DNA of 64,000 nucleotides, from NCBI GenBank assembly GCA_026692865.1, contig JAPLNI010000057.1:248001-312000 (forward strand). The letters run 5' to 3'. This DNA comes from Planctomycetota bacterium (GTDB lineage: Bacteria > Planctomycetota > Planctomycetia > Pirellulales > Pirellulaceae). The notes under the pieces are model-generated. The model was not told the DNA's origin and searched no databases. It saw only the letters and a list, made by a program, of their open reading frames with translations. A program made the position numbers and the translations under genes. Positions 26,304 through 61,067 of this stretch are shown piece after piece. Each line of letters begins with the position of its first letter. The stretch's first letter is position 1.

Positions 26304-29300
26304 ATGGTTATTCGTGGCTTCCGCGACGATTCGGTTTCAAATCACTCGAGTAGCGAGTCTGGCACTTCAGCCGACTTGGGACATGGAAAGAATTCGAGTC
26401 GATCTTCCAAGAAACAGAGTGCGATAGAAAAGTCCTCGCTTCAAAAGCAGTTTCGTCAGACTCTGATTGAATCGCTTGAAGTTCGAAATCTAATGGCGGG
26501 GCCTCAGTTGATCGGCATTCAGCCGAACAACAGCGACCTTATCGAAGAAGGAGTCGTTCGGGATGTTGCTCCGCGCGAGCTAACCTTCCGATTCGATCAA
26601 TCGCAGGTAATCAACCCGCAAACAACCGGTGGCATTCGGTTGACGCGTTCAGGCGGCGACGGATCATTCGGGTTGAACTCGGCATCGACTGACTTTGGCT
26701 CAGCAGGCAAGGTCGATATTCAGTTGACCATGAGGTCATCCGGGCAGACGTTGACGGTCAATACGACGAAGGCAGACCGAGGTGCTCAAGGTCCGCTACT
26801 GTCGCTTGCCGGTAATGTCTTAACCATTACTTTGAATTCAAACGCAACCACACCAACCACTGCTGGGCAGTTGGTAAACGCGATCAATTCTAACAGTACG
26901 ACGAATGGATTGCTGACAGCTGTAATCAATGGTGGTTTTGCGAACGCCAAGCTTGGCACATTGACACCATCCGGTTTCGGGCCAATCCGAATCGACCAGA
27001 CTAATGACCAGATCGTCACGCCAGCGTCAAGTATCGTTAGTAACGCACCAAATCAAAACGAAGTCAAGTTTCAGTTCGCTGAAACCCTTGTTGATGATGC
27101 ATACCGAATTGAGGTATTTGGATTCGATAATACACAAGCTGGTATTGTCGGGTTACGTAATAGCCTCAACGAGTTGTTTGTGCCGAAGAATTCCGGAACA
27201 AATCGAGACACCTTTAACTTCCGATTAGATTTGGGTTCAAAAGTTCTCGGTGTTGTGCCACAGCCAATTGTTCGAGATACGTCGGACAGGCTTACTCAGC
27301 GACGAGATGAAATCGTTGTTTATTTTGACAATGACAAGCTGCTTGTGGAGAACGATCTGGTTACCGGACTGCCAACCAATCGGTCGGCGGAAAACGTAGA
27401 TTTCTACCAACTGATTTATACCTCCGACACGATCAAAAACACTGCGGGCGATGATTTCGTTTTCAAGCCGGTCACTGCAACTTACAACGCAAGTGCTAAC
27501 ACCGTAACGTTAAAGTTTGCGCAAGACATCAACAATCTTCGTCCGGCTAATTCACCAAACGCGGCTTATCGTTTGCGAGTTGGAACCCGAGAGTCCCTGC
27601 CGATTGCGCCAGTCCGAACTACCATCGGCGCTGAACTTGGCGACACGTTTACAACAGCAACTAGCGTTGGTGTAATTGGATCCCAAGCAACTCCTTTATC
27701 GAGCTTCGTGTTTACATCGGAGATCAAAACCAGCGTTCTCGGTTTAGACAATCTCGGTGCAAGCGACGATTCCGGTCACCGTGATTTGGGCGCTGGCAAT
27801 TTTGAGAATCATATCAATAGCGCGTTCGGTCCAGATAGCAATCCTGGAATAACGAAGATCAACTATAACTTCAGGTCCGACTACGGTTCTATCGGAGCTG
27901 CCACGCAACAAAACTCGATATCAATCAATCAGCGGCAAAGGGTTCGAGAAGCACTTCAAATCTGGTCACGCTACCTAGGTGTTCAATTTGTTGAAACCGA
28001 AAGCGCAGGATTTACGTTTGCAACAGGCAATCGCAACGTCTTGAACACGTTTGTTCCTGGTACTCAAATTCAGCAAGAGGCAACTAGGAACTTTGGGGCC
28101 AGGATCGATCCAACCTTCCAAAGCGGTCTATTGGTATTGGACGCTAGCCGAGCATGGAACGAAAATTATGGAGAAGACTACTATCGCCACGTCATGACGG
28201 GCATCGGAATGATGTTGGGTCTTACCCATGCGGGCGATCTTCCGGCGTCGACACTTCTTGCGCTCAACAACACATTCCTTAATTTGAATGGCGGGACTTC
28301 CAATCTCGAATCAATTTTTCCTGGAACACAGGATATTCTTCACGGTCAGTTTATTCACCAAGCAGATAACAGCGACATCGATCTTTACCGATTCGTCGTT
28401 GATTTCGGTGCCAACGATGATGGCCGGGTGGGTAAATTAGAAGCTGAAACTTTTGCAGAACGTGGTGCTCAATCCAGTTCGCTAGACACTTACCTGCGCC
28501 TTTACAAAGAGCAACAAGCGACCGCAATCGCTAACTTCGGTGCAACAAATGGATTAGGAATCCAGTTTACCGCGGTTGCTCCAGGCCGACTTGGGAACAA
28601 CGTTCAAATCGCAGTTTCACGATCCGCAATTTCCGTAACCGCCCCTGGTTATACAAACAACACGATAATTCGTGTAAGTCCAAATCTTATACAGGTTGAA
28701 TTGAATTCGACTCCAGGATCAGAGACGACGATCGCTCAACTATTGGCTGCGCTGCAAAGCAATCCAAACGTAACGGCGTTGGTGTCGTTTTCGTTAACAC
28801 CGGGTTCACCAGCTACTGCAGGCAGCACAGTAATCGGTGCTACGGAAATCACCTACTCACCGATTACCCTGCAGGGTGGCGGTATGACGCTGCTCGCTCA
28901 AAACGATAACTATTTCAGCGAAGACTCTTTGCTTCGTCTTTCACTTGGTTCCGGCGTTTATTACCTTGGCGTTAGCGCGTCCGGAAATGACCAGTATGAT
29001 CCGACCATCCCTGGTAGTGGAAAGGGCGGAAGATCTGAGGGAGCGTACGATTTGCGTGTTACCTTCCGAGCTCAAACCGACTCGACAGACACTATCACCG
29101 ACACAAACACCAGGTTTATTGGAGATGAATCGCAATCGCTTGACGGCGATACCGACGGTATTACGGGCGGTGTCTATAATTTCTGGTTCGAAACTCGTCC
29201 AGAAAACCGAATCGTTTCGGTGAATGCTGGTGGTTCGACAAGCCTGGAAGGACAGGTCATATCGATAACAGGTGCCAATGGCGCTACCCGTCGGCTCGAG

Positions 29301-32300
29301 TTCAGTGTGGATAGCACTGTTGGCGTTGGCAATACACGGATTAATTACACCGCTGCGTCAACACCTGCTCAGATGACAGCAAGCCTGATAAGTGCAATCA
29401 ATTCTCTAACCACGCAAACAGGCATTGCCGCAACATTAAATGTAGGATCGACCACGGCATTTACTCTCGTAGGCGAGAGAACTTTTAGTGTACCCGCTGC
29501 AGTTACCATCCTGGACATTGCCGGTAAGACAATTTTCGTTGACAAGTTGGCCGGTCCGAATGCGGATGGATCTCTTACAAATCCGTTTAACAACATCCAA
29601 GGTTCCGCTGTTGCTAACGCATTTGGATCTGCTCTTCCAGGCGATATTGTAAGAATCGTTGGAAACGGCGGTAATGATCGCGACCTATCAACGACAGGAG
29701 ATAACTTCGCTTACGAATTTGGTATCGGGCTTATCGGTAACGCGCCGCTCTCCGATGGCGCTGCTCTGGAAGTACCCAAGGGCGTTATTGCAATGATTGA
29801 TGCTGGAGCGATATTCAAATCGCGACGATCACGAATCGCCGTTGGTAGCTCTAACGCTGGTATTGACCGAAGTGGTTCGAACCTTCAAGTTCTAGGAACT
29901 CCAGTCCTTGTCCAAAATAATGCCGTCGTTAAGAACGCGGCAGGGCAGAATGTTCCTGGTAGCGTATTCTTTACGTCTTGGTTAGACGAAACCCTTGGGC
30001 GAGATACCTACGGGCCATCGACAACACCGGCGAGCGGTGATTGGGGTGGAATCATCCTTCAACGTGACGTCGATCGCGCTGCAGCTCGATTTGATAAAGA
30101 AGAAGAAGGGATTTTCCTAAACTACATCAACTTTGCCGACATTCGATTTGGTGGAGGCGGTGGCGTGGTTATCGATTCGGTTCAACAAGCAGTGAACCCG
30201 ATACAAATTGTCGATGGTAGACCGACAATCAGCTTCAATACAATCACCAATAGCGCAGACGCTGCCCTCAGCGCCTCGCCGAACAGTTTTGATGAGACGC
30301 TGTTTACAGACAAACAGTATCAAGCTCGAGGAGCATTCACGCCAGATTACGACCGAGTGGGCCCGAGTATCCATGACAATCGCTTGGTGAATAACTCCAT
30401 CAACGGGTTGTTCGTAAAGATCACGACGCTGCCAGCCGACGCGCCACGAAGTCTGACCGTTGCAGGGCGGTTCGACGATATTGATGTCACGCACGTGCTC
30501 AGCGAAAATCTGCTGATTCAGGGAACTCCCGGCGGAAGTATTCAAGACGTTTCACGCCCGTCGGTTCAGTTCACAACAGTTTCAGCCGCCCAAGGTGGAT
30601 CTCTGGCAAGTGGTATCTATAACTACATCGTTACCTTTGTGGACATTTACGGAAACGAGAGCGTTCCATCACAAGCGACACCGAACTTTGCTTTGAATGG
30701 TGCGAACAACGCCATTTCCATTCAGGGGATCTCGCCAGCTCTCGGTGCTTACACATCGGTCCGTCTCTATCGAAGTAGCACCGGCGGAGTGGGGCCATAC
30801 AATTTGGTTGCGAGGCTTGCACAAGGTCAAACAACGGTACTAGATAGAGGACAAAACCCAGCAGGCACCGATGGTACGTTGCAAACGCTTGGTCTTACGT
30901 CAGTCATTCGGTCGAGACTTGATGCGTCCTTGGTAATTGATCCAGGTATCACGCTGAAGGTCGAGGGTTCTCGAATTGAGCTTGGACACGGAACACAGCT
31001 ACTCGCAGAAGGTACCGAAGACCTACCGATTACCATCACTAGCAAGCTCGATGATTCTGCTGGAGCAGGTGGAACATTTGACACCAACAACGATCGTAGA
31101 CTTTCCTTGCCGACTGCGGGTAACTGGGGTGGGATTTTTGTTGCGCCAGGTGCCAGCATTTCGCTTGATCATACAACGATCGCCTTTGCAGGCGGTGTCA
31201 CTCGTATTGATGGTACATTCCGATCGTTTAATGCTTTGGAGATCCAACAAGCTGACGCGCGGATTGCAAATTCAACTTTCAGAAATAACGCTACCGGCGT
31301 GGGAGGCCAAGGCCCTGAAGCGAGATTCGGAAGACTTGCCAACGAGCCAGCAACAATTCTTGTACGCGGTTCCAGCCCTGTTTTCCTCAATAACTTCTTT
31401 GATTCAAACACAAGCACCTTGACGAACGATCTGAACCCACTTCGAATGGCGGCGATCAGTATCGACGTCAACTCGATGAACAATGATCTTCAAGGTGATA
31501 CGGGGCGTATGACCGGTTCGATCGACCGGGTAACAACACTTGACAACAACCGAGGACCTCTTTTCCGCGGTAATAGCTTTAACAACAATGATCTAAACGG
31601 TCTCAAGATTCGTGCCGATGATCGCAGCCGAAACACGGCGACGACCATTTTGGATATCGATAATGGCCAGCTTCCATCCGATGCATTGACCGTAGAATCC
31701 GTTTGGGATGACACCGACATCGTACACGTCTTGTACGATGGAATATTCGTCGAGAACCTACAACATGAAGGTGGGTTGCGACTCCAAAGTTCGTCGACCG
31801 AATCTCTTGTCGTAAAGATGATTGGTGCTGGTTCAAACTTTGATCCACTTCGCGGAACAGGACTCACCGCACGTGGAACCAAGTCTAGTATCGACGATCG
31901 AGTAGGCGGAACAATTCACATTGTTGGTCAGCCTGGATTCCCGGTAGTGTTAACCAGTCTTCGCGACGATAGTGTCGGCGCAGGATTGAGGCCAGATGGT
32001 ACTCCGCAAACAGATACAAATAACAACGGCATTGCTACGATCGCTCGACCTGGCGATTGGCGAGGCGTTATGCTGGACCAAAACAGCCATGATCGAAACG
32101 TCGCGTTTACCCTCGAGACCGAGCCAACCAATATTGTTGCACCTGGAACTAACGGTTCGACTCAGAACCCACAAGTTTTGGGCAGCCTTGCTGCAGATGC
32201 ATCCGCCTCCGATGAAAACCTACGACTCGGATTCGTAATCAAGGGGATACTCAATCAACCAGAAGATGTTGATGTGTACAGTTTTTCGGGCGTAGCTGGA

Positions 32301-35300
32301 ACCGAAGTTTGGTTCGACATCGATCACACGACGTTCACCCTTGATACGGTAGTTGAGTTGTTGGATGCAAATGGAACGCTTATCGCGCGAAGTAACAATA
32401 GCACCGATGAAGGTGCGGGATTGCCAGGAATCTTCACGAATCCGTTGCTTATCGCAAGTGATCGTGTTCAATCGCTCGCCAAGCAACTTGTAGGCAATGT
32501 GCGACGTAATGCAGACGGATCTTTAAAGGAAGACGGTACTACTAATCCGCGTGATGCGGGATTCAGAGTCGTCTTACCTGGTCCAACGAATACTCGAACG
32601 GGTTATTTTTTCCGTGTGCGAAGTAACTCAACCAACATCGATAATTTCTCGGCAGGGATCACCGCTGGAACGTATGAGATCCAAGTCCGACTTCGTGAGG
32701 CACAAGAAGTTGCTGGCTCGATCATCACCGGTGCAGATATTAGGTTTGCAACGAACGGTATTCACCTTCGCGGCTTGCCAGCTAGCTCTCCTTTGCTAGG
32801 TGAAGCAAGTGAAAGCGAGTCACAAGCTGCTACGGCTGCTATTGCGACGACCAGAACTACAGCAACGGTTCCGACATTAGTTTCTACCAACAACAATCCT
32901 TGGAGCTATCAAACCAGCGGAAGCTTCCTCAACCCCCAGTTTTACTCGACAGCCGCACGACCGGACTACATCGGTAACATCGCGGCTTCCGATCGAGGCG
33001 TATTAAGCGTCGCCGGAAACTTGGCCACTGCAACCGATACCGACTTCTTCCGATTCAGTCTGACAGACCAAGATCTAGTGAACCCGATTACTGGTGCGAC
33101 CAAGAATCTTGTCTTCGATATTGATTACGCGGATGGTTTGAATCGCGCAGATACCAATCTCTCGGTATATCGACTCGTCGATACCACCCCAGGAAACGAA
33201 TCATGGCAGTTAATATACTTCGGTGAAGGCAGCAATATTGCCGACGACCAACGTCTACCGCTCTCGAGTACTGCAACGACCGAGTTGACATCAGGTTCGC
33301 TAGGAATCAACGATCCCTTTATCAACGCAGCCGCATTGGGAACCGGGGAATACTTAGTTGCTGTCACCGCATCAAACCGTATCCCGACTGAGATTAGCCC
33401 TAACAATCAAGGTTCTGTTCTCTTCGTTTCCGAGGTGGATACGACAAGATCGAACTTCTATCTTGCAGACCTCTTACCGATACTTCCATCTCAAACACCG
33501 ACGCTTACCTTCAATTACACGAGTATTCCCGCAGCGGCAAATTACTTCGTCTTTATCAACGGTGTGCCTTATGATCAAGCAGGACAACCGGCGGTCGGGA
33601 CTAACAATCCGATCGCGGGTTCCGGTATCTTTACCCTCGACTTGACTCCATTTGCCGGTACGTTCGTTTCGATCAGATTTGCGGCGATTACACCTCCGAC
33701 GACTGGCGCTCTGCCGACCATTACTAACGTTTTAGTAAGTTATGCAGATACTGTTGCGATACGAACTCCGTTCTCTCGATTGTCCACACCTCAACTGGAC
33801 ACATTGGGTACCGGTTCATTGAATATCCCGGGACCTATTGGCGCCCAGCAAATCGTTAATTTTGACCTCAGTAATTATTCGGCTGGTGATCTGCCAGCGG
33901 CTTATTTTGAATATGCGCTGATAGCCAACGATTACACCGTTACTGTGCAATCTTCAGGTGCTCCCGTTCCTGCAACCTTCCTAACTGGTGCGTTGCGAAC
34001 TAACGGAACACGTAATCAAGCGAAGGTAGATCTCCGTCAACATGCAGGCCAATCAAACGTTCGACTTATCTTTACATCCAACGTTGCCGTATCCACAGCG
34101 ACTGTCGACAATCTAATCGTGGGATTTGCAGAACGAGGTGAAACCGTTACCGCCGCAGCAAAGTCACAAGCCAATTATGATTCCAGAAACGGATTATCAT
34201 CGATACCGCTGTTTGTTGCTCCACCGATTTTAAATACCACACCACAAGCGGGTCGTTACCAATTGGAAATTCGTAGCGTCACTGCCCCGACGCTTGCTGA
34301 CACCAACGACCGGGATGGCAATGGTCTTGCAATCACTGTACCGACAATTGTGACGGCACAACCGTCGCGATGGACCGTCGCTGGCGATTCGAGCACCCCT
34401 AGAATAAATGGAGATACTTTCGCAATCTCCGATGGGGTATCGAGCCTGACTTTTGAATTCACGTCAGACGGAATCGTTCAGCCTGGAAACGTCGCGATCG
34501 TTGTTCAAACCAACCCGGTCGGCTCCGCTACGGTGACTAGCACAGCAAGCGCAATTGCGCAGACGATCCGAGATGCGATTAATAGTCCTTCAGTTCAGTC
34601 GCGATTCACCGTGAGAGCGGCAGGCGTAGACGGAACGGCTACGGGACCGCTGCAAGGCAACTCGCTGAATCTGTTCAACGCGAACTCGGTTAGTGGATAC
34701 TTCAAAAAGGCTACTGATCCGGCATTTACCGGCGCATTGTTGCGGGAATTCGCGGGAAATGGTGATGCGAATATCGCGAGAGACCAAGGGCAAATCATCA
34801 TCGCAGGTAACTTTATTCGAGAGTCCCGCGATTACGGTATTTGGTCCGAAGCAGGGCTCGCCGACTATGATCCTCGCGATCTAATCGATGTTTATTCAAT
34901 AACCGGTGATTTGATTGACAATGGGTCGGTTCGAAATCCTGACGCGATCATCCAGGCAAGACCTCGACTAGTTGGAAGTTCACCAGGACCCGCTCGAAAT
35001 CTTCCGACATTGAATGCTGACTTGATCGGTGGATTCACAACAGGAGTTGTTATTACCAACAACGTGCTTGATAGAGGCGGCCTTGGCGGTATTAGTGTTG
35101 CCGGCGAAACGCCAATTTGGATGATCACACCGTTTACGATTCCGGTGACCGACAGTAGCCTTTCAGTAAACACCGTCGGCAGTCACTTTGGAAGCTTTGT
35201 TAATGATGGCGACCAGTTTATCTTTGATTCCGACCGAACTCGCGTAGGCTTCGAGTTCGATGATATGGCCGGTGCCGGAACCGGCGCACCAAACTTTGGA

Positions 35301-43412: not shown

Positions 43413-43478
43413 AGCGAAGGAAAGCTTGATACTTCTCTGATGGGAACTTAATGTCCGAGAGCAATTTGCAGAACCAAT

Positions 43479-43510
43479 ACTTGTCGACACTGGAGAGGTC
43501 GACAAGTTTT
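43479..43510 (+). terminator. Intrinsic terminator between the two giant genes
   Basis: ACTTGTCGAC (43479-43488) pairs perfectly with GTCGACAAGT (43498-43507) around a 9-nt loop and is followed by TTTTGGCTTTT. It lies 67 nt past the stop of giant gene 1, so the second giant gene probably has its own promoter in the remaining spacer. Confidence 0.75.
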
Positions 43511-49600: not shown

Positions 49601-52600
49601 CGACACGGCTGGAATTACGGCGAGCGGTCGCCCGTTGGATATTGCATCTCGCATTGGCGGGTCTTTGCACATCGTCGGGGCGCCCGGATTCCCGGTGATC
49701 TTGACATCCATCTCGGATGACTCTGCGGGTGCAGGATTTGATTGGACAGGTCGTGCCATGCTAGACACGAATAACGATGGAGTTTCTACGGGAAGTCCTA
49801 ATGACTGGCGTAGTATTCGATTGAATCCGTACAGCAACGATCGAAACGTAGAAACGTTTATCGAACTGGAAGCGGACCCGATCGGGGATAAGAATCGAAA
49901 TGACTTGCCTGGCTCAGCACAAGACCTGGGTACGCTCGCGTCGAATCTAAACGGTGGTGATGAGAATGTTCGTCTCGGATTTACCGTTACTGGCTCGATT
50001 GCCGTGAAATCCGATCTCGATGTTTATAGCTTTACTGCAACTGCTGGTACTACCGTTTGGTTTGATATCGATCGGTCCGGATTGGCTCTAGATTCGGTTG
50101 TTGAACTGATCAATCAGTCTGGGCAAATCATTGCCCAGAGCAGTAATTCATTTGAAGAATCTGTAGCGGGTTCGGTTTTCACTAATCCTGGATTAATCGG
50201 TATTGGTCGAGCGTTTCCGATGAACCAAAGTTCATTTGTAGCCCCCACATCGGATTTCCAAGCGACGAATCCGCTGGATGCGGGACTACGAATTCAGTTG
50301 CCAGGCGTTAACGGCACTACGAATAAGTACTTCATTCGTGTTCGAAGCACGAATTTATCGCCGACTGATGCTGCAAGTAAACTTCAGGATCTCAGCCAAG
50401 TCTCACAAGGTCTTACCGTTGGTCCTTATAAGCTACAGCTTCGAATACAACAGGAAGATGAGGTAGCGGGCTCTACAATTCGATTTGCTGATATTCGATA
50501 TGCCAACACCGGTATTGAAGTATTAGGCTTGCCGGGGCACTCGCCCCTTGTAAGCGAGAACGGAGAATTATCGACAACTTCGACTGATCCAGCTACCGCG
50601 CAAGACTTAGGCAATATCGCGAATAGTGATCGTTCGGCGATTTCGATTAGCGGCACCATAAACAACGCGACGGATGTAGATTTTTATCGATTCCGAATTA
50701 GCCGTGATTCAATACAATCACCGGGTAGTTTGCCTTTAGGTACCGTTTTTGACGTTGATTACGCAGACGGTCTTGGACGCCCGGATACAACGTTATGGGT
50801 GTACCGTGTTACTCCCGCTGGTAACCAGCTTGTGTTGATTGGTACTGATTCCAATATTGCCGATGACCGCGCTGCTCCAGGTACCGCATCCAGCGCTAGC
50901 GATTTGACTCGAGGATCGTTTGGCCCTCGAGATCCGTTTATTGGCGCGCAAGAATTGCCTGATGGTGAATACATTGTGGCGATCACACCGGCAAGTCGCG
51001 TAGAACAGCAATTCCAGCAGTTCTCTCTAGCAAACCCAGTGAACCCACTATTTAGAATTGAACCAATATCGAGTGTTCAACGAATCTCCGAGGATCATTT
51101 CGAGACGGCGAACTTCCCAGTACTGGAGCCCGGCGTTACGCTGACAAAACAAGTAGCATTCAGTGGAACAGCGAACGCTGTCCCATTGAATCTTTCGGAT
51201 GTAACTCTCTTTGTTTCACAAACCGATGAGCGTACAGCAGCCGGTAATCGCTCGCGTCTTTTGTACTCGAACGCAGTCACCGGTGCGAGAGAAGCAGAGC
51301 TTGGACAAGGCCTCAACTACCCGCTCGTAAATGACATTGCAGTCAGTCCATCAGGAACTGTCGTCGGTGCAGAAGTACCATCTGCGGCTGCAGTTACCGC
51401 GACTCCCAATGACGCAAATATTGGTTTTAACACTTCATTGCGACATGATGGAAGTGCCCAAACGCGAGTGAATTCTGGCATACAGACATATGAAGCGTAC
51501 CCAAACGCAACGGGGGCTGGATTTCAGGTCACGCAAGCTCGTAATGGAACGGGAAACAATGCGACGCCGGGAGTTGGAACCATCTTCACCGCTCTAAGTT
51601 TCGTCGATACGGTCGCACCAGCGGCAAGCTCTTTGGTACTGTTTGCAATTGGACAGCGTGGAAATCGTCTACCGTTTGACAGCAGTGTCATGGGAGGCAA
51701 CCCCCTAGCAATTGTCGGTCTAACTCCTGGCGATGAAACAACGGCTTACAAAAATATCCTGTATCGATTAAATCCAGATACGCTCACAGCAACATCTCCT
51801 CCAGGTGTCGCGGATCGAGCTGGAGATCGACGAGCTCGCGGCACCGGAACTGAAGTCCGCGAATATGGTGTCTTCGCAGAGATTGCTACTTACACATGGG
51901 ATGTCAACAACAACGGTCGCGGCGACGATATCGTCGTTACTCGACAAGCCAACGGCGATATCGTTGGATTATCTGAAGTTGATGGAGTTCTCTACGGTGT
52001 TACAGAATTTGGTGAGCTATGGAGCATGCCGATGGGCAGCTTCAACAATGGCTTCCGAACTGGAGCAACACTTGTTTCGACAACACTTCCACCTGGTTTG
52101 ACGGGCCTGTCGACTGGTCCACGCAACGTTGAAGGGGGTATTTATGCCGATATGCTTTTTGGAATCACTGCCACTGGTGAGATTCATGCATTTGATGTTA
52201 CCGGGGCGCCACAAGCTGTTTTCCCAGGCGCCGCATCGAGCGTGATCGCACCGGGAGCCGATGGACTAGGCACGGTAAACGGAATCGATTTCGCTGCGTT
52301 GGACGTTAATTTGTGGCACACTTCCAATACTCGTGGTGCAGATGCTGGACACGGTCGACCAATCAACTTTGATGCGACTCGACGAATCAATCAAGCTGGT
52401 AACAACAGCCTGTACTTTGGTTATGAACCAACCGGTGGTAATGCAATTGCTGGAGATTGGACACGAATCTACAACACTGCAAGCACTGTTGGTACGTATG
52501 ACTTTGCTGGTGGTGCTGCGGGAGCGATTGAAAGTAACTCGATCGACCTGAGAGCCTATTCGGTTGACGACAAACCGATGTTGTATTTTACGTATCGCGC

Positions 52601-55600
52601 TGAAACGGAAAATTCCAACGGTCCTAATACCGATAATGCGCCTATGTTGGATGCATTTCGCGTTTATGGCGTTCGTCCGGATGGTACTTCCGTTTTGTTA
52701 GCCACCAACAATGCCGCCGACGATCGTAACTACATCAATTCAAACAACGAATTCGATCCAGATAATGCTTTGAATAGCGACGTTTATGGCGGAGTCTACA
52801 AGCCGCAAACTCTTTTTGATGCCAACGAAGCAGGAGATACTGGCGGATGGAGACAGGCTCGTATCCCGTTGGCAGCATTAGCCGGTTTGAATGACGTCAA
52901 GTTAAGGTTTGAATTTAGTACGGGAGGCTCCTTTAGATCAGCAGATCCGCTACGTGGCGGTTTGGAGTTAACGATCGTCTCGGGCGACCAGATCGATGAT
53001 GGCGAATCATTTACGATGACTGGACCTGGACCAATTGGACTTCCTGTTACGAATACCTTCGAATTTGATCTCGGATTGGTTCTCAATTTGCCAAGCGGTG
53101 CAAGTATCGTGGCAGGAGATCAGCTCACGGTAGAAGGAAGTGTATTCACATTCGTCACCGGTATACCAGTTGGACGGCAGATTAGATTTACCGCGGCGGA
53201 CACGCCAACTCAAATTGCGGCAAGCGTTTCGGCCGCGCTAACTTCGAATGGATTCATAGTAGCGACTAATAGTACTTCGCCGAGCATTATTAATGTCACC
53301 GGCGGTGTCACACCTGCGGGACTCCATTCTGTAACAGGCCTTGATCCGGCAATAATCATCGCTACACCTGGCGTAGCGGGAACAAACATCGCGGTTCCAA
53401 TAGACCAAAGCATGACGGCTGCGACAGTCCGAGACAGAATTAAGAGCGGTCTGGCTGCAAGTTTTAATGTCGTCGGTCAAGAGTTGAATACAAGCGTTTG
53501 GCGATCCTACAACAATACGCTTCAAATTCACAACTACACGGTTGACGCAGCCGGTCCGTTAAGCCTGGCTACAGCACGTACCGGGGATGCCTTCGGAGCA
53601 AAAGACCCGATCGGAGCAGCGGACCCGACTCGTTTTGCACAAGCCTCCTTGAGATCTACGAATAATGATAATCAAGGTATCTTCGTTGACGACATTATCA
53701 TTGGACTTGCCGAGCGAGGCGAGATGGTCGTAAACGCGACGGTTGCGGATCTTGTATACGGCGCAGACGCAGTTTTGATCGACGGCGGTTACCCCAATCC
53801 TGCTCCTATCCCATCAGGAACCTATCAACTCGAGATTCGAACCGCAGCCGACTACTTGCTTGCAGCAAGAGGTAACAATCCAGTAACGTCTATATTTCGC
53901 AACTATGATTCGAATGACCGCCTTGCAAAGCAAGTAGCACTCGTAGTAAGCGGATCGGCGACGTTTGTGGATGGCGAAGCCTTCACGCTCTCTGATGGTG
54001 CGAACTTGGTAACTTTTGAATTCAACGTTATCACTTCTGCAGCAGATCGTGCCGCAACAGTTACGCCGGGACGTATTCCCATAACAATCTCTCCGGCTGC
54101 AACGACTGGTGAAATCGTTAGTGCAATCCGTAGCGCGATCAATAGTTCAACAGTTCAACAGGTGCTTCGTATCACTGCTAGTGCGACCGGTGATGTTCCA
54201 GACGGTGCAGGTGGTTTCTTGTTGCCAGACAAGTCACAAGTGCTTCAACTGCATGGCTTGGTCGCAACCGATCGACTGGGTAGTCTTGTATCTCCATTGC
54301 CCGGAATATCGTTCACACAGTTTGGACTGGAATCGGCATTGGGCGAAGATCTTGGCGATTCAAATCGCAGAAGAGATCAAGGGCAGATAGTGATTTCATC
54401 AAATACGGGTCGAAACAGCCAAACCTACGGGATCCTGGTGGATAATGCAGCACGCGACCAAAGCACTCTAGCGCAGTTTCTCGGTGATCGTCCCTACCCA
54501 GGTAGCGTACGAAATCTCGTAACCACAAACACCTCGAATTTAGCTCCTGGTGCCACAGTATCCAATAACATCATTGCTTCAAACGTGCAGGGAGGAATTC
54601 GGATCAGTGGGGACAATACAGCTGGAGATTCACTAGCGGCAAGCAATATCGCTCGTGTTTATAACAATACGATTTACGGTCTTCGCGCTAATGATCGAGG
54701 GATTCTGGTCGAACAAGGCGCGAGTGCGACGATCCTCAATAACATCTTAGCGAACCTGAATACTGGTGTAGCATTAGTTGGTGCAGGTGGTACTACGGTA
54801 CTTGGTGCCAACATCTATCAATCTAATGTTCAGAACGTTACCGGTACCGGAACTGGTACGTTCCCTATTAACCTACTGCCTACAGATCCTTTGTTTGCAG
54901 ATGTTACAAACGATAGGTTCTACCTCGCGTTTAGGTCTCAAGCGATTGATAGTAGCTTAAGCTCGCTAGCGGAAATTGGCCTTCTATCACAAGTAAAGAA
55001 TTCGGTAGGACTACCTTTAAGTCCGCTAATTGCTCCCGACCGAGACATCACAGGTGTATTCCGTGTCGACGATCCACTCGTAAACACACCAACTGGCCAA
55101 GGCCAAAATGTGAATATCGATCGTGGTGCTGTTGAGCGTGCTGATACTGCCCGCATGAGAGCGATTCTTGCGAACCCGCTCGATAATGATTCAGCCAATA
55201 TCGACCAAGATTCAAACGAAACTTACGTCCGGTTACTTCGAGGCAGTCTGGACTATTTCTCCATCTTACTATCAGACAATCAAGGAACGGGTCCCGATTC
55301 GAGAACGGTTGTATCTGAATCCGTGATTGTCACTGAGAATGGTCGATATCTCGTAGAAGGAATTGACTATGTGTTTGGATACAACGCTGGAAGCAACACG
55401 ATTCGGCTAACTCCCGTGGCTGGTATATGGCGACAGGATAGTGTTTATGAGATTTCGTTAATTAATAAACCAACGTATCGAATAGATACAAACGACGGCA
55501 CTAACCTCGTTGATGGTTCCACTTTAGTTGTAACCGTTGCGAACGGAACCACGCGTACACTCGAGTATGACTCTGGATTTGTTCTGGACGTGCAGTCTCA

Positions 55601-58600
55601 AGTAACGCCGTTTATTATAGACGGTCAGACCATTACTTATCAAAGAGCTGATGGAACGACGACCACGTTCGAATTCGATTTGGCTGGAACTCCTTTCAAT
55701 CCAGCCAATACCCGAATCTCGGTTGTTGCTTCTGACACAAATCTCACTATCGCTGATAAAGTGGCCGCCGCGTTGGCCACAATTGTTACCGGAGGTAGTT
55801 TCCCGGTAATGCATCTTGGGCAAGGCCGTGTTCATGTGGGTGGGGTCTTTGGTGACCAAATACAGGTCTCTGGATCAGCACTTGTCCTCACTGGTCAACC
55901 AGGCGTTGCCCGATCCATAAGGATACAAACTCCAGTAACTGGAGGACTTGGGATTACTGACGGACAGTTGTTTTCTATTCGTCTGGCAAGCGGTGTTCCC
56001 GTAACCTTTGAATTCGATAGCAACAACGTGTCCACCATTGGTAATCAAGCAATCCGTTTTTTCCCAACAGATACACCAAATCAGCTCGCCGCAAGAATTG
56101 TATCGGCGATTAACGCATCTACTCTTGGATTAGTAACTACCGTGGAGCCGAATGGCGTTGTTGTATTAAATGAGCCAAGCGGCACAATTCTGAATCTGCT
56201 GACATCTAATCTAAGTCAAACGGGAGTTGCTGGTGGAGCGATTGAATTGCCCTTTGTACCTTCCGCAACTTTCACAACTGAGCGAGCTTCGATTCAGCTA
56301 ATTCAAGCACTTAACCAACTTGGTCAGGGTGTCAAAGCGTACTCGATTGGACGCGGTGGCTTGCTAGTCGAAGGCGCTGTCAGTTTGGCAGGATTCAATG
56401 CGACCTTACTTCCAGTCATTCGAGATATCGCCGGTAATTCAGTCGATGCAAATCGATCCAACTCGCTGACTCAGTTCACGATTGCAATGCCTGACGTTCG
56501 ATTTGATTTCGGTGACGTCCCTGGAGCAACCGCGCAAACGCTTTTAAGTAATAACGGAGCAAGAAATGCGCAGCTTCCGGCAGATGCGATTCAGCTCTAC
56601 TTAGGAGCGACCGTTGACACCGAGGCGGATGGTCAACCCAACCCTAACGCCACGGGTGATGATATTGCTAGTACCCCTTCGGATGAAGATGGAGTAAGGA
56701 TCGTAAATGGTCTGTTCCAAAATGGATTCTTCAACAAACAGGTCCCTCAGACGTCATTGATCGTTACCTCATCTGGGGCCGGGTTCGTTGACGCGTGGAT
56801 CGATTGGAATCGAGATGGCGATTTTACTGATGCTGGAGAACAAGTCATATCCAGTCAGATTGTTTCTGGCCCCGGTGAAACGACTCTAACAGTGACTACT
56901 CCTGCCTCGTCGAGCGTTGGCAGTTCATTCTTGCGAGTAAGACTGAGTGCGCTTGGAAATCTCCTCTCGGGTGGCGTAGGAATCGGCGGCGAAACAGAAG
57001 ATTACCGAATCGATATCATCGATAATGTTCCGGTTGTCGCCAACGATGACAACTATTCGACAATAGAAGATACTATGCTAGTTGTGCCATCGTTTGGTAA
57101 TCCTAGACTTCTTGCAAACGACGTCGATGCGTCAGGAACAACATTGGCAATTGTTGATAGTGATTTGATCCTTCCGGGTATCCAACCACTAGTTTCACCG
57201 TTGAACGGCACATTGACATTGAGTGCTGATGGTAGTTTCCAGTATGCCCCAAATGCAAACTTCACCGGCATAGATACGTTCGTATATTTTGCGAGTGAAC
57301 CAGTTCTTGCTGGTGTTATTTCCAGTTTAAGGCCAGCAACCGTGACCATCACCGTCACCGGTGCAAACGATCAGCCTGTATTTGTTGCTCCGAGCACGAT
57401 CAAGGTTATTGAAGATCAGGGCAGCACGACTGACGGGCTTGGTAACCAAGTCCAAGTTCCAGTTTCGATTCCTAGTTTCTTAAGTGGGGTTGGCCCTGGT
57501 CCCGTCACGGCCTTGGATGAAGCTTCACAAACGCTGACCTTTAATGTCAATGTACTTCAACCAAATTTGTATCTGTCACTTCCAACAATAGTTCGAAGCA
57601 CTACGGATCCATCCCTCGCAACCTTGACGTTTACACTCAATCCAAACGTAAACAATCTATTTGTTGGCGGAAACAACAATCTGATTGTGGTTTCTATATC
57701 CGATAATGGAAACCCGGTAGCAACTTCATCGCCGCAGACAATTTCAATCGATATCACGCCTGTTAATGACGCTCCGGTGGCAAACGGAAATACCTTTAGC
57801 ACCTACGAAGAATCTGCGATCACGATAACCGGGGCCTCGTTGATTCTGCTGGACTTGGTAGGTCCGAATTCCGCATTGGATGAGTTGTCAACACAGACTC
57901 TGAATATTACAAGCGTCCAATCCACAACCAGTGGCAACGGTACGGTTGTTCCGTCCCTTCCAAACTCGTTTATCTACACTCCAGCAGCAAACTTCGTTGG
58001 TTCAGATACCTTTACTTATACGATTTCCGATGGCGTTTCTGGAAATCCGCCCGTTACTGGAACTGCGACCATCAATGTGCTTGCAGTCAACGACGCTCCA
58101 TCGTTCACCATACCGGTTACGACAATCAATGTGCAGGAAGACCAAGGTAGTACAATCGACGCAAATGAGGTGCAAACTCAAGTGCCGATTTCGATCCCTG
58201 GATTTGCAACGAACGTCGCGCCTGGACCTGCTGGTGCTGTCGATGAACAGGGGCAGATACTGGACTTTGTCGTTGTTGCATTGGAACCGAGCTTCTATTT
58301 AGTTCCACCAGCAATCGTACGTAGTTCAACGAATCCTAGTTTGGCGACACTTACTTTCACGCTTAACCCACACCTCAATCGCAATACGCCTATCGGATCT
58401 AACAACAGAATTACGGTTACATTGGTAGATCGAGGACCAAACGACCCTGCTATTCCGCCGCCAAATCCGAATGCAAGACCAGCTGATATCAATAGCAGTT
58501 CGACACAGACGTTTTCGATCAACATCAACCCGGTGAATGATCCTCCGGTACCATCAACTCTTCCTGGACCGTTTATGGCCACTGAGGATTCGCCGTTAAC

Positions 58601-61067
58601 GATAACACGTACGCAGCTGCTGCAGCCTGTCGGCGGAAGTCCAGCGCTCCCAGGACCAGTGCAAGCGACAGATGAATCAGGGCAGTCATTCTCGATTACT
58701 CGAATCGATGGGATTTCTGCGCGAGGCGGTACTCTCAGTGCAACTCTAGACGGAACTGGTTCGATTGCGTCCATGCTTTATCGACCGTCAAACAATTACG
58801 TCGGTCCTGATTTCTTTACCTACACGCTAACCGATAACGGTGGTGGAACAACAAACACCACCATCGTTACTGTTCCCATAACCGTCACCCCGGTCAATGA
58901 CGCTCCGCTATTCTTGTCTAGCGGAAACGTTACGGTTTTGGAAGATTCGACCGCCTACTCGGCGCTTTGGGCTACAGGACTCGCAACTGGCCCTTCCACC
59001 GCGATTGACGAATTGAGCGGTAACGTGGCTTTAGGAATCCCGGCTCAAACAATGCTGCCGTTTACGGTGACCAGCACATCGCCCGAGCTATTCTTAGTGG
59101 CACCAGCCATCAACGAAACTGGTGTATTGACATTCCAACTGCGCCCTAATGCAAACGGAAACTCTATCGTTTCGGTGAGAGCAAATGATTCCGGGTCGGG
59201 TGTTTCTCCGAACATTAATCAATCCAATGCAACATTGTTCACGATCACCGTAACTCCAATTAATGATGCGCCGATCTTTACTCCAGGTGGAAACATTTCG
59301 GTAGTGGAAGATGCAGGTACCGTTTCGCAAGCGTGGGCTTCAGGAATTCTTCCTGCAGCAGGACTCAGATTGTCGCCCCAGCAATCTTTGGACGAAGCCA
59401 CTCAAACAGTCTCGTTTGTTGTAAGCAACAATAACGCAGGATTATTCGATGTAGCACCAGCTATTGATCGATTTGGTGTGTTGACTTTCACGACGAAGTT
59501 AAACGCAAATGGCTCGGCTGTCGTCACTGCTTTCGCTCGAGATAGTGGGTCCGGGGTGCCAGATAATGTGAGTGACTCGGCTCCAGTCAATTTTACAATC
59601 ACATTGACTCCGGATAATGACGCGCCGATTGGTGTTGACGATCGTCATTCGACCAATGAAGACACACAACTAATCATTACCACTAGCCAGAGTGTGATGG
59701 GTAACGATTCGGATCCAGACGGCGATCTGTTCGCTGTGGTTCCTGGTCAAACGACAAGCTTCAACGGTGCGTCGGTGACGATGATCGCTGACGGGACTTT
59801 TGTTTACGATCCACGTAACTCGGCCAACCTACAAGCACTTGCAAATGGTCAGGCAATCGAAGACATATTTACATATCGCTTACGTGACGCAAATAATGCA
59901 GTCAGCTTGCCCGTTACAGTAACGGTAACTGTAGCCGGTCGAAATGACGCTCCGCGGACGATGGACGACACGTTACCAATAACGTTCAATCAAGATACTA
60001 TTTTGGATATCTTGGCGAATGACGTTGACGTAGATTCAATCATCAACCGTCAAAGCCTTGTCATTGGGTTAGTACCATCAAATGGTCGCGTAACGGTTCT
60101 CAATGACGGACGTGTTTCTTACGTTCCAAATACCGGTTATCGTGGTGGTGATTCATTCACCTATCAAGTGCGTGACGACTTGGGTGCTCTTTCGCGAGAA
60201 ACTACTGTCCAGTTGTTTATGAATTCCCCACCTGTCGCGAATCCTGATTCGAGGAGCACGGTCGTGGGATCGGCGATAACCATCGACGTGGTCGCCAATG
60301 ATCGTGATCCGGATGTTGGTGATACTATTGTTCGCCAGTCAGTCGCAATCGTTAGCCAGCCCACTAGCGGAACGGCAATTGTTTTGTCCAACGGCGACAT
60401 TCAGTTCACACCTAACGCTGGATTCACTGGACTTGCAACATTCACATATACCGTGGCAGACAATAACGGATTAAGGAGTAACGTTGGGAACGTCAGTATT
60501 GACGTTGTTGGATCGCTCTACCAAAACCCAAGGAATCGCTTTGACGTAAATAACGACGGATTCGTATCGCCGATCGATGCGTTGATCGTAATCAATTATC
60601 TTAATACGCGACCAGTACCACCGTTATCAACAACATTGCCGCCAAACTACTTGGATGTCGATGGTAGCGGATTTGTCTCGGCCGTCGACATCCTTCAAGT
60701 CATCAACTTCCTTAATGATCGAGTTGTTGGTAGATCCGCAGAAGGTGAAGCCGGAAATGCTTCTCCGGTGCGATCACTTGCGACACCAAGCATCAGTCTT
60801 CCCCTCTCAGGTACTATTGATGTCGAAGTGTTGGACCAAAAATCGGTTCAAGCATACGTTCAAGGACAACTTGTGAGTTCGTCGACTGTTGATAAATCTC
60901 GGAAGGCTTTGTTGGCAGGCTCGGGAATGCTTGGAGATTTCGGTTTCGATGATGATTCTATTGTTGCTTCAGTAGCCAATGAGCTATCTGCGAATCGATT
61001 ACAAGGCAGTAACGAAGACAACGTAGGGTCGTTACTGGAAGGTGTACTTGACGAACTTGGGATATAA
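43698..61067 (+). CDS. Giant secreted-type protein 2 (about 5789 aa): two intact matrixin-like proteases, PPC, beta-helix, GEVED, cadherin-like array, dockerin
   Basis: Layout from ATG 43698 (the frame opens at TTG 43692; ATG 43719 is also possible; none has a clear Shine-Dalgarno): LEPR-XLL-like LVEGLERRELMAG (35-47); first matrixin-like domain with HEAGHGIGLGH (416-426) and a possible Met-turn TKLMEP; PPC (about 470-600); second protease domain with HEIGHLLGLVH (1044-1054) and GTVMG; PPC (1090-1210); beta-helix (1255-2010); two PPC domains; a propeller-like segment with GDIVGLSEVDGVLYGVTE (2490-2870); hook-IN-like modules; second beta-helix (3560-3755); GEVED ending GGETEDYRIDI (4270-4445); long cadherin/Ig-like array (4445-5605); dockerin with DVNNDGFVSPIDALI and DVDGSGFVSAVDIL (5611-5682). 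It parallels giant protein 1 but adds a protease domain. Zn-dependent proteolysis is inferred from motifs. Confidence 0.9.
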   Translation: MAKGLLAMVRNSLSSLGNVLSKSKSQLRQAFRKMLVEGLERRELMAGDSGPRLLSLATNNGITLDPNATGVLANQLSVSPSELIFRFDGTQAIDFSSLSGITIQREGNADSSFATSPFIQVNPTSFSFGETQQIVIAQFEDPLPNDLYRIQISGAGSLQPVRNTLGIPLMLSSGAQTTYLMNVGGGIANSVVTDLPVSPSNVMRASGVFAQGTSADYVQQWIDRLSGRTSSTTTAPLSQSRSALSSPINLPGERWTTPTGGSSPNEGDPATVSWSIVPDGTPYDTGILGSGNSNVVAFLDGIYGGGTGPLSNRPWFAIVKSAYDRWSELSGITFVYEPQDDGGPINGASRGVSGVRGDVRIGGRNIDGNSNILAVNYYPNAGGASGLDGDMIIDTADNFYNNTTSNSLGLFNVLMHEAGHGIGLGHVIPSNQTKLMEPFVSRAYRGPQHDDILAAQTLYGDAQEVLGDPPHDLGVIANGRTTLNSIVSIDRNGDIDNYNFSTLSSGRLTIRVTPVGQQYIVGPQGGATGPVDTLINKNLSFDLLTGAGTLLASVNANGVGQMEELLRFDIPGNGNYRIRVSGAGVETQLYTLELVASRFINNGVGVQAPRLLSIAPNSGQLLDPNAKNVSSANVLNESPRELVFRFSGSQQLDPASLRGIRITRSGGDNDFTNGNEIVLTPSFLGFGENNSIVVARFGEALPDDRYRIEILGVDAHGLPALQSIDDQVLIPRFAGTDRDTYFLNLELGTKIIAVVPQPVTRLADGTLSQARDQIEVFFNDDDLTKAIAEQTNFYQLILTNDSITPNDDTVFTPSSVFYDPTTDKAVLTFSNNLDTLAGGSGTFRLRIGSNRTVATQLAPQVPIVSSFAVDAGDTLASASTIIGTLSGPSSRLINSTATVTATNQLNLQFPGSNFEPGHRDIQDETHLGGGPDASPNITKVLYNFSDGRSYGFGSNGQPLFSSITPDQRQRVREIFEFYSAQAGIDVLETAAEGLTIVVGDMFPLNNPPPPFTPAGIAGGNLAIMNGALSWNNGLGESFFDVALHEIGHLLGLVHTYDLPSGTVMGSTGQLDSGNPIEFFFPGDHDVTHLQHIHRPDNRDVDIHKFDLQPGQRGTLVVETIAERLSDASDLDTYLTLFKRDATGLHVIAINDNYFSNDSLIRAELIGEVGVEYFIAVTSRGNENYDPQVTGSGSGGTSEGRYQLRIDYRPSEASQIVDTSGTPFDGDGDGIAGGEFNFWFRTATPIDALAPPTTTPKTIFVDKDNPFSSGNGALSNPYQNIPSALAAALPGDIIRLIGSSGNDRNLATTNDNLAYEIGDGGPGKGTLSDGAGLLVPKGVTLMIDAGAIVKVGSTQILVGSDDASSDRSGAAIQVLGTPTRNVMFTSYFDESLGIDTNLLNTTPLAGNWGGIEIRNDIDREQGRREPELAGVFLNYIGQADIRYGGGSVGQGLQSRRINPIHLASARPTLLNNKITDSADAGISADPNSFEETLFTEPRYQFTGLFVPDYSRIGPDIQGQRITNSSTNGLFIRIDTLAGQTLKKLTVAARLNDTDITHVLGENLIVEGTPGGSFKETVGPDFTFVTLVPVAGGALSSGQAYNYQMTFVDRYGNEGIPGSIPLTVTPTALNQSVLISNLSAATGEFVGRRLYRKLATSATWDLIAELDRDNSTYTDIGNTKLLGSGIILSTATSLQRGRRDASLVVDPGVVIKSLGSRIEVEMGANLIAEGTSSKPVIFTSRRDDRYGAGASFDTNNDQAQSVAVAGDWSGIIANHLSSINIDSALITFGGGASSIAGGFATFNAVEIVQASARIANSVLENNAQGNATAGSSNRDFHGPTDASVIRVVASQPVIFNNTIRNNSNSAAISIDANSMKAVSVRDYGRSTGLNARTFDNVGNLGPFVYSNELGGNALNGMIIRGATLTTEAVWDDTDIVHIVGSEIVVPDFHTYGGLRLQSKVDESLVVKFSSDTAGITASGRPLDIASRIGGSLHIVGAPGFPVILTSISDDSAGAGFDWTGRAMLDTNNDGVSTGSPNDWRSIRLNPYSNDRNVETFIELEADPIGDKNRNDLPGSAQDLGTLASNLNGGDENVRLGFTVTGSIAVKSDLDVYSFTATAGTTVWFDIDRSGLALDSVVELINQSGQIIAQSSNSFEESVAGSVFTNPGLIGIGRAFPMNQSSFVAPTSDFQATNPLDAGLRIQLPGVNGTTNKYFIRVRSTNLSPTDAASKLQDLSQVSQGLTVGPYKLQLRIQQEDEVAGSTIRFADIRYANTGIEVLGLPGHSPLVSENGELSTTSTDPATAQDLGNIANSDRSAISISGTINNATDVDFYRFRISRDSIQSPGSLPLGTVFDVDYADGLGRPDTTLWVYRVTPAGNQLVLIGTDSNIADDRAAPGTASSASDLTRGSFGPRDPFIGAQELPDGEYIVAITPASRVEQQFQQFSLANPVNPLFRIEPISSVQRISEDHFETANFPVLEPGVTLTKQVAFSGTANAVPLNLSDVTLFVSQTDERTAAGNRSRLLYSNAVTGAREAELGQGLNYPLVNDIAVSPSGTVVGAEVPSAAAVTATPNDANIGFNTSLRHDGSAQTRVNSGIQTYEAYPNATGAGFQVTQARNGTGNNATPGVGTIFTALSFVDTVAPAASSLVLFAIGQRGNRLPFDSSVMGGNPLAIVGLTPGDETTAYKNILYRLNPDTLTATSPPGVADRAGDRRARGTGTEVREYGVFAEIATYTWDVNNNGRGDDIVVTRQANGDIVGLSEVDGVLYGVTEFGELWSMPMGSFNNGFRTGATLVSTTLPPGLTGLSTGPRNVEGGIYADMLFGITATGEIHAFDVTGAPQAVFPGAASSVIAPGADGLGTVNGIDFAALDVNLWHTSNTRGADAGHGRPINFDATRRINQAGNNSLYFGYEPTGGNAIAGDWTRIYNTASTVGTYDFAGGAAGAIESNSIDLRAYSVDDKPMLYFTYRAETENSNGPNTDNAPMLDAFRVYGVRPDGTSVLLATNNAADDRNYINSNNEFDPDNALNSDVYGGVYKPQTLFDANEAGDTGGWRQARIPLAALAGLNDVKLRFEFSTGGSFRSADPLRGGLELTIVSGDQIDDGESFTMTGPGPIGLPVTNTFEFDLGLVLNLPSGASIVAGDQLTVEGSVFTFVTGIPVGRQIRFTAADTPTQIAASVSAALTSNGFIVATNSTSPSIINVTGGVTPAGLHSVTGLDPAIIIATPGVAGTNIAVPIDQSMTAATVRDRIKSGLAASFNVVGQELNTSVWRSYNNTLQIHNYTVDAAGPLSLATARTGDAFGAKDPIGAADPTRFAQASLRSTNNDNQGIFVDDIIIGLAERGEMVVNATVADLVYGADAVLIDGGYPNPAPIPSGTYQLEIRTAADYLLAARGNNPVTSIFRNYDSNDRLAKQVALVVSGSATFVDGEAFTLSDGANLVTFEFNVITSAADRAATVTPGRIPITISPAATTGEIVSAIRSAINSSTVQQVLRITASATGDVPDGAGGFLLPDKSQVLQLHGLVATDRLGSLVSPLPGISFTQFGLESALGEDLGDSNRRRDQGQIVISSNTGRNSQTYGILVDNAARDQSTLAQFLGDRPYPGSVRNLVTTNTSNLAPGATVSNNIIASNVQGGIRISGDNTAGDSLAASNIARVYNNTIYGLRANDRGILVEQGASATILNNILANLNTGVALVGAGGTTVLGANIYQSNVQNVTGTGTGTFPINLLPTDPLFADVTNDRFYLAFRSQAIDSSLSSLAEIGLLSQVKNSVGLPLSPLIAPDRDITGVFRVDDPLVNTPTGQGQNVNIDRGAVERADTARMRAILANPLDNDSANIDQDSNETYVRLLRGSLDYFSILLSDNQGTGPDSRTVVSESVIVTENGRYLVEGIDYVFGYNAGSNTIRLTPVAGIWRQDSVYEISLINKPTYRIDTNDGTNLVDGSTLVVTVANGTTRTLEYDSGFVLDVQSQVTPFIIDGQTITYQRADGTTTTFEFDLAGTPFNPANTRISVVASDTNLTIADKVAAALATIVTGGSFPVMHLGQGRVHVGGVFGDQIQVSGSALVLTGQPGVARSIRIQTPVTGGLGITDGQLFSIRLASGVPVTFEFDSNNVSTIGNQAIRFFPTDTPNQLAARIVSAINASTLGLVTTVEPNGVVVLNEPSGTILNLLTSNLSQTGVAGGAIELPFVPSATFTTERASIQLIQALNQLGQGVKAYSIGRGGLLVEGAVSLAGFNATLLPVIRDIAGNSVDANRSNSLTQFTIAMPDVRFDFGDVPGATAQTLLSNNGARNAQLPADAIQLYLGATVDTEADGQPNPNATGDDIASTPSDEDGVRIVNGLFQNGFFNKQVPQTSLIVTSSGAGFVDAWIDWNRDGDFTDAGEQVISSQIVSGPGETTLTVTTPASSSVGSSFLRVRLSALGNLLSGGVGIGGETEDYRIDIIDNVPVVANDDNYSTIEDTMLVVPSFGNPRLLANDVDASGTTLAIVDSDLILPGIQPLVSPLNGTLTLSADGSFQYAPNANFTGIDTFVYFASEPVLAGVISSLRPATVTITVTGANDQPVFVAPSTIKVIEDQGSTTDGLGNQVQVPVSIPSFLSGVGPGPVTALDEASQTLTFNVNVLQPNLYLSLPTIVRSTTDPSLATLTFTLNPNVNNLFVGGNNNLIVVSISDNGNPVATSSPQTISIDITPVNDAPVANGNTFSTYEESAITITGASLILLDLVGPNSALDELSTQTLNITSVQSTTSGNGTVVPSLPNSFIYTPAANFVGSDTFTYTISDGVSGNPPVTGTATINVLAVNDAPSFTIPVTTINVQEDQGSTIDANEVQTQVPISIPGFATNVAPGPAGAVDEQGQILDFVVVALEPSFYLVPPAIVRSSTNPSLATLTFTLNPHLNRNTPIGSNNRITVTLVDRGPNDPAIPPPNPNARPADINSSSTQTFSININPVNDPPVPSTLPGPFMATEDSPLTITRTQLLQPVGGSPALPGPVQATDESGQSFSITRIDGISARGGTLSATLDGTGSIASMLYRPSNNYVGPDFFTYTLTDNGGGTTNTTIVTVPITVTPVNDAPLFLSSGNVTVLEDSTAYSALWATGLATGPSTAIDELSGNVALGIPAQTMLPFTVTSTSPELFLVAPAINETGVLTFQLRPNANGNSIVSVRANDSGSGVSPNINQSNATLFTITVTPINDAPIFTPGGNISVVEDAGTVSQAWASGILPAAGLRLSPQQSLDEATQTVSFVVSNNNAGLFDVAPAIDRFGVLTFTTKLNANGSAVVTAFARDSGSGVPDNVSDSAPVNFTITLTPDNDAPIGVDDRHSTNEDTQLIITTSQSVMGNDSDPDGDLFAVVPGQTTSFNGASVTMIADGTFVYDPRNSANLQALANGQAIEDIFTYRLRDANNAVSLPVTVTVTVAGRNDAPRTMDDTLPITFNQDTILDILANDVDVDSIINRQSLVIGLVPSNGRVTVLNDGRVSYVPNTGYRGGDSFTYQVRDDLGALSRETTVQLFMNSPPVANPDSRSTVVGSAITIDVVANDRDPDVGDTIVRQSVAIVSQPTSGTAIVLSNGDIQFTPNAGFTGLATFTYTVADNNGLRSNVGNVSIDVVGSLYQNPRNRFDVNNDGFVSPIDALIVINYLNTRPVPPLSTTLPPNYLDVDGSGFVSAVDILQVINFLNDRVVGRSAEGEAGNASPVRSLATPSISLPLSGTIDVEVLDQKSVQAYVQGQLVSSSTVDKSRKALLAGSGMLGDFGFDDDSIVASVANELSANRLQGSNEDNVGSLLEGVLDELGI

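Follow-up and report, generated by a model that had tools for sequence, protein, structure and literature searches.

Background

The sections of PMC11266112 and PMC5053510 drawn on here describe metallopeptidases that have lost catalysis and taken on roles in complexes, in some cases next to an active sibling. The first of these, a review of pseudopeptidases, treats mostly animal proteins in those sections, among them the pseudo-ADAMs of family M12 (ADAM11, ADAM22, ADAM23 and others). These are extracellular proteins with a degenerate HExxHxxGxxH motif, for example QTLGQNLGMMW, and some of them act in complex assembly (PMC11266112). Csd1 and Csd2 of Helicobacter pylori, encoded by consecutively numbered genes, are an active and a degenerate, metal-free metallopeptidase that form a heterodimer (PMC5053510). 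Alpha/beta MPP and the bacterial two-gene M16 peptidases likewise comprise a dead and an active subunit, encoded in bacteria by a two-gene operon (PMC11266112). Giant genes and huge proteins are already known in general from Planctomycetes (PMC5177795, PMC11573180). The portions of these two papers used here do not mention protease or pseudoprotease domains in the giant proteins, and the words "protease" and "peptidase" do not occur in the main text of PMC5177795.

A 64,000-nucleotide stretch of DNA from a planctomycete of the family Pirellulaceae (the window) encodes two adjacent giant proteins, designated P1 and P2. Like the pseudo-ADAMs, P1 appears to be a metzincin with a degenerate HExxHxxGxxH. 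The pseudo-ADAMs of PMC11266112, however, are animal membrane proteins of another metzincin family, whereas P1 is a bacterial protein of 5700 residues; the Met-turn methionine, typically kept in them, is missing from P1, although TLM is present in many P1-type relatives. Csd1 and Csd2 are small proteins of the M23B LytM fold whose interaction was demonstrated (PMC5053510), whereas P1 and P2 are known from sequence and their pairing is not universal. In the M16 pairs, as covered in PMC11266112, the dead half is needed for catalysis, whereas active members of the P1/P2 family occur in genomes without the dead gene. P1 and P2 share their size, their cadherin-like/Big_9 and dockerin content and their phylum with the planctomycetal giant proteins of PMC5177795 and PMC11573180. 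No literature on the P1 lineage was found among the matches listed from open-licence PMC papers.

Results

P1 and P2 are tandem giant paralogues

The following features were assigned to the two genes.

26304..43412, + strand: P1, giant secreted-type protein of 5702 aa carrying a dead (pseudo) metzincin domain; open frame, collinear with relatives from 10 other genomes, among which one has a broken frame
28494..28898, + strand: P1 module of an unnamed family, residues 731-865, nested in a PPC-type region directly after the pseudoprotease; also in relatives
29526..33383, + strand: long stretch of P1 in common with P2, 43% identical by pairwise comparison, termed a beta-helix in the preliminary description
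40602..40889, + strand: P1 GEVED domain (Pfam)
40902..42692, + strand: P1 cadherin-like/Big_9 array, span between best-scoring matches (Pfam)
42876..43058, + strand: P1 dockerin type I domain (Pfam)
43413..43691, no strand: intergenic gap of 279 bp between P1 and P2, which lie on the same strand
43692..61067, + strand: P2, giant secreted-type protein of 5791 aa with putatively active protease domains; open frame
56787..57011, + strand: P2 GEVED domain (Pfam)
60540..60716, + strand: P2 dockerin type I domain (Pfam)

The preliminary description of this DNA, made from its letters and open reading frames, had proposed two tandem giant paralogues of 17.1 and 17.4 kb, the first with an uninterrupted frame of 5702 codons. 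Both proposals were borne out by open frames of 5702 and 5791 aa, both open from end to end, and by domain-wide homology. The start of P2 was placed at a TTG at 43692; an alternative ATG at 43698 may be the real start. The same domain order had also been proposed for both proteins, and it holds for the C-terminal succession of GEVED domain, cadherin-like/Big_9 array and type I dockerin. Of the PPC matches only one, in P1, lay above the Pfam cut-off, and the beta-helix stretch (P1 residues 1075-2360 against P2 residues 1258-2437/2441) had no Pfam match at the thresholds applied. An N-terminal LExR-type motif resembling the planctomycete extracellular motif is present in both proteins, with a weak Pfam match to that motif in P2 alone (E 0.0045). 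An NCBIfam search of the N-terminal half of P1 assigned no family.

The nested module lies at the same place, right after the dead domain, in all nine other P1-type proteins with a complete domain part, and modules of its type recur elsewhere in these giant proteins. Its identity with a Pfam Flagellin_IN match was considered and rejected, the two not being the same element.

The genes flanking the pair (RecR-like, menaquinone-biosynthesis-like and phosphorylase-like) point to no functional link. A divergent LigD 3'-phosphoesterase-like gene lies upstream of P1 (window 25402-26043, - strand). Relatives of it were seen in 6 of 80 named loci; in the four listed, the relative is at about 7.6-8.4 kb and the P1-type domain at 10 kb, and its linkage with the P1-type gene may be conserved.

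The active site is erased in P1 and two sites are intact in P2

28197..28229, + strand: erased active site TGIGMMLGLTH of P1, replacing HExxHxxGxxH and starting at residue 632
44646..45077, + strand: N-terminal matrixin domain of P2 (Pfam matrixin, E 1.7e-19), with HEAGHGIGLGH at 44943-44975
46404..47081, + strand: second metzincin domain of P2, the counterpart of the dead one in P1, with HEIGHLLGLVH at 46827-46859, starting at residue 1046

TGIGMMLGLTH and HEIGHLLGLVH were found where they had first been reported, at 28197 and 46827, and the loss of the catalytic glutamate and of two of the three zinc-binding histidines was confirmed: His1 is replaced by Thr, Glu by Gly and His2 by Met, while His3 is kept. 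The residues GHRD, QRQRVRE, LGL-H and DLP are in register between P1 and P2, in agreement with the claim that flanking residues and GL-H are kept. The Met-turn methionine is also lost from P1, where TLLA aligns with TVMG of P2; both the zinc site and the Met-turn methionine of an active metzincin are therefore absent from P1. P2 has an intact set of motifs, HEIGHLLGLVH...TVMG and HEAGHGIGLGH...KLMEP. The N-terminal site had been overlooked: the HEIGH site is the second of two HExxHxxGxxH sites in P2, and P1 holds a counterpart of the second only. Here "active" denotes an HExxH that is intact by sequence, proteolysis being a prediction only.

No HExxH was found in P1 or in 10 other P1-type proteins read at length; for one of these 10, from the frame-broken G146, the domain part was read apart (AAIGMVLGLEH). 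An N-terminal matrixin domain was present in 5 of 11 downstream proteins compared, indicating that it has been gained or lost independently of the second site.

Alignment of the P1 and P2 domains, which the preliminary description had proposed as a check, showed homology over the domain length (352 columns, 35% identity). Homology thus extends throughout the region, beyond the short motif, and the alignment together with the predicted fold match described below rules out a chance motif without homology.

The P1 domain is predicted to keep a matrixin-type fold

27807..28370, + strand: predicted pseudo-metzincin fold of P1 (residues 502-689), from the match of AlphaFold2 model residues 62-249 to MMPs, karilysin and serralysin

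A Pfam sequence search of P1 gave no protease match, and among 28 P1-type rows only one had a weak matrixin match. In the active-type alignment A3, all 25 rows matched Peptidase_M10 (matrixin) at E<=0.01, and comparison of A3 with PDB sequences gave MMPs as the best matches; the second domain of P2 scored 23.4 bits against Peptidase_M10, just below the 24-bit cut-off. An AlphaFold2 model of the P1 domain, built with 61 relatives in the input, had a mean pLDDT of 77, with most of the core at 85-98. Foldseek matched this model best to snapalysin (E 2.3e-6), then to karilysin, serralysin and MMPs, with 133 matches at E<=0.001, and VIA-align against MMP-3 gave a best Z of 15.2 (model residues 62-248, 154 aligned, 3.0 A). 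The P1 domain is therefore predicted to keep the matrixin-type (metzincin) fold. Modelling of both domains had been suggested earlier; the P2 model was poor (pLDDT 62), its best Foldseek matches again being MMPs, at E 1.4e-3.

The dead P1-type copies form an old clade

A homologue was found in 160 of 199 genomes of the window's family. Trees were built without the motif columns and rooted at the midpoint. In a tree of 80 rows from a quick search, 48 dead rows, including every upstream copy, formed one clade (SH-aLRT 99). A FastTree tree of 232 rows held 167 dead and 63 active rows and 2 with HE but the second His lost. The P1-type clade in this tree comprised 111 rows, none active, with support 98; the window copy is counted twice among the 111, and merging the rows at 99% identity leaves 107, at 95% identity 98. 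Its single origin is read with the dead clade on one side of a branch and the rows from other families on the other.

Two further dead clades were present. One, of 25 rows, is of third-paralogue type, has several replaced motifs and includes a copy from the window genome itself; the other, of 21 rows, shows an RG-I/V-G motif in 18 and TLVM/NLIM motifs in 3. The third giant paralogue of the window genome, which had been overlooked, is dead (RGIGNLLGLGT; G000:C30:94616-95614, L002) in an open frame of 5294 aa. On the 232-row tree the states dead, HE-only and active changed into one another at least 13 times, indicating that catalysis was lost repeatedly in the family.

Among named genomes, 79 of the best 80 of 196 confirmed loci were P1-type, none of the 79 with HExxH; they came from Pirellula, Rhodopirellula, Rubripirellula, Stieleria, Roseiconus, Roseimaritima, Ca. 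Laterigemmans and unnamed MAGs. In a table of 40 genomes, the window included, 37 P1-type copies were read and 3 were unread; all 36 copies with a domain were dead, and the 37th, from G150, is domain-less. The three P1-type sets (36, 79 and 111) overlap and were found mostly with P1-type queries, so that they are not a measure of how frequent dead copies are. Whole P1-type proteins from nine other genomes were collinear with P1 nearly end to end, at about 32-55% identity in long stretches, and lacked HExxH. In other families of the order all 16 delivered loci scored as active-type and 11 of the 16 keep HExxH. A plasmid collection gave no match for the P1 domain.

A recent, strain-specific loss or a sequencing error in the window genome could in principle give the same picture. 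An orthologue of P1 with an intact HExxH was looked for and none was found (36/36, 79/79 and 111/111 without it); the identical dead motif occurs in a genome of the same genus, and the other P1-type copies read have dead motifs. As far as the data go this explanation is refuted, and we regard it as extremely improbable.

Constraint acts on the dead domain

28101..28109, + strand: R600-I-D602, kept in the P1-type clade where active copies are shorter or different; placement aligner-dependent

We compared the columns in which P1 is not gapped. Those with at least 85% conservation across the active copies and a different predominant residue in the P1 clade were only 632, 633, 636 and 642 (catalytic His/Glu) and 644 (Tyr). 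The reverse pattern was seen in 18 columns, for example W554, Q561, R600, D602 and R628: the P1 clade keeps a residue there, whereas active copies have a gap or something else. At 3 of these 18 columns P1 itself does not carry the residue typical of its clade. Within the P1 clade, R600 is conserved at 96% and D602 at 99%; active copies have a gap at the first position and Gly (74%) at the second, and P2 is gapped here. The dead copies have a distinct motif consensus, A/T-G/S-I/V-G-x-x-L-G-L-E-x, in which positions 8-9 are G and L in all 111 rows. Mean column entropy over 290 shared columns was 1.43 bits in the dead clade against 1.83 in the active set; since the active set covers more families and kinship within the samples is uneven, the figures indicate only that the dead domain is no more variable than the active one.

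A dN/dS check had also been proposed, across orthologous pairs, and was carried out for one same-genus pair (L129). It gave 0.017 for P1 residues 480-715, 0.027 for residues 1-1610, 0.025-0.035 for the other measured parts of P1, all above the pseudoprotease domain, and 0.015 and 0.031 for two pieces of the P2 protease domain; the values are rough, dS being near saturation (1.2-1.9, and infinite for the helix alone). The claim of a dead protease kept under selection is upheld by these rough values, by the 111 of 111 dead rows and by the finding of no HExxH orthologue. With the predicted fold match, the lineage has the marks of a pseudopeptidase, G150 being the exception.

This constraint could be purely structural. 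The domain may be a folded relic, a spacer kept because a misfolded segment would harm a secreted protein of 5700 residues, and several observations are consistent with this: residues of fold type (LGL, G, PG..D) have survived the loss of the catalytic ones, catalysis was lost repeatedly (at least 13 state changes), the active site is likewise gone from the third paralogue and from one more clade, and G150 manages without the domain. The residues conserved in the dead clade alone, however, exceed the apparent need of fold upkeep, and just 1 of 37 P1-type copies read has lost the domain. We consider a relic of this kind somewhat unlikely.

Natural variants

In G150 (L377, G150:C3:50000-54500) the P1-type gene is kept and the dead domain is cleanly deleted with its flanks joined: the profile matches at 2-37 and then at 257-345 with no gap, 38-256 being missing. 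This natural deletion indicates that at least one lineage can do without the domain. In G146 (L215, G146:C8:88400-108300) the P1-type frame is split into 1838 and 3971 aa that overlap in two frames, the domain being dead; the break is either a real frameshift or an assembly error.

Two proteins from another family of the class (G414 and G467; L374, L375) have a module nested at the P1-type site and keep HExxH. They are a possible active outgroup of the dead lineage; as the nested module recurs elsewhere, the common site could reflect parallel insertion.

A downstream-type protein of G038 (L373) has its second site erased (KTFGFAMKLGY) and its N-terminal matrixin site intact (HEAGHGLGLAH), indicating that loss struck the other domain in this case. 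The same-genus copy of P2 (L007, G001:C465) has one in-frame TGA within the match, which may be an assembly error or a real break.

The dead gene is not always paired with an active one

In the 10 other genomes fetched at length, a partner gene lay 20-361 bp downstream on the same strand in every case, starts being chosen by script; several of the downstream proteins are incomplete at the 3' end of the DNA fetched. The first 15 pairs, drawn from the best-scoring matches and including that of the window's own genome, were all dead upstream and active downstream. A universal pairing of this kind, suggested by these early pairs, was rejected on a wider sample: in the 39 genomes of the table with a partner (none was found in one), the next gene downstream was active in 18 and dead in 21, the dead ones mostly from another dead clade. 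Adjacent dead and active genes throughout the family, as expected of a Csd1/Csd2 or M16 type of system, were therefore not observed.

At least one active homologue was present in 35 of the 40 genomes with a P1-type gene; in the other five (G012, G075, G150, G038 and G174) an active relative was not found, minor matches being read in part across the table. Genomes with the partner on another contig or with matches partly read were left out of the table (among them G001, G041, G043, G049, G068, G081, G082, G103, G124, G192 and G194), and the P1-type copies read in such genomes were also dead. Copies were also read in seven genomes without a P1-type gene. Five of these hold an active one (G005, G080, G128, G134 and G148), and in G022 and G097 the copy read was not intact.

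These counts bear on the suggestion that the dead protease is a scaffold, decoy or regulator of its active neighbour. P1 as a dedicated regulator would pair with the adjacent active protease as heterodimer partner, inhibitor, chaperone or substrate adaptor. The close, co-directional spacing in 10 of 10 genomes and the first 15 pairs argue for such a role, as do the precedents of Csd1/Csd2 (PMC5053510) and the two-gene M16 operons (PMC11266112), within the sections of those papers used here. Against it, 21 of 39 genomes have a dead copy as the next gene, 5 of 40 have no active relative found, and 5 of the 7 genomes without a P1-type gene still hold an active copy. The dead and conserved part of the suggestion stands; regulation of the neighbour is not supported as worded, and we judge it unlikely, since it fits the nearest relatives and not the family at large.

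Discussion

We favour, with moderate confidence, the reading that the P1 domain is a pseudo-metzincin of ancient origin that now serves as a non-catalytic module for binding or assembly, its function being inferred. That only catalytic residues are erased while the fold is kept, that new positions are conserved and that the domain persists without an active neighbour favours reuse; its persistence beside a dead next gene (21 of 39) or where no active copy was found (5 of 40) suggests that it has an independent role. Among the observations that stand against reuse are the loss of the domain in G150 and the broken frame in G146.

On the reading of reuse, matrixin-type metzincin catalysis would have been lost once, before the sampled P1-type copies diverged, and the catalysis-free domain would then have been turned into a binding or assembly module. 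The region of the metal-free cleft may bind a protein or peptide partner, which could be a giant sibling protein, a polymer of the matrix or some other protein at the surface. Anchoring of P1 in a cell-surface layer would fall to the cadherin-like array and the dockerin, and in genomes that have an active sibling, this sibling would process or remodel that layer.

A wider proposition can be put forward only tentatively, as one that is rather doubtful. The three long-lived dead clades and the scattered losses might mean that the matrixin-type fold has repeatedly been turned into a non-catalytic recognition module in giant surface proteins, usually with at least one catalytic sibling per genome, forming a dead-metzincin adhesion or assembly system for which we found no described bacterial counterpart.

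The reuse of dead metallopeptidases is known, and the bacterial P1 pseudo-metzincin lineage is a new case of it. It provides a bacterial metzincin pseudoprotease lineage kept in many genomes of a family, together with an active sibling, other dead lineages, a natural deletion and outgroups with HExxH. The P1 lineage thus makes it possible to test which functions a dead protease fold takes on, and offers a handle on the function of the giant genes of planctomycetes.
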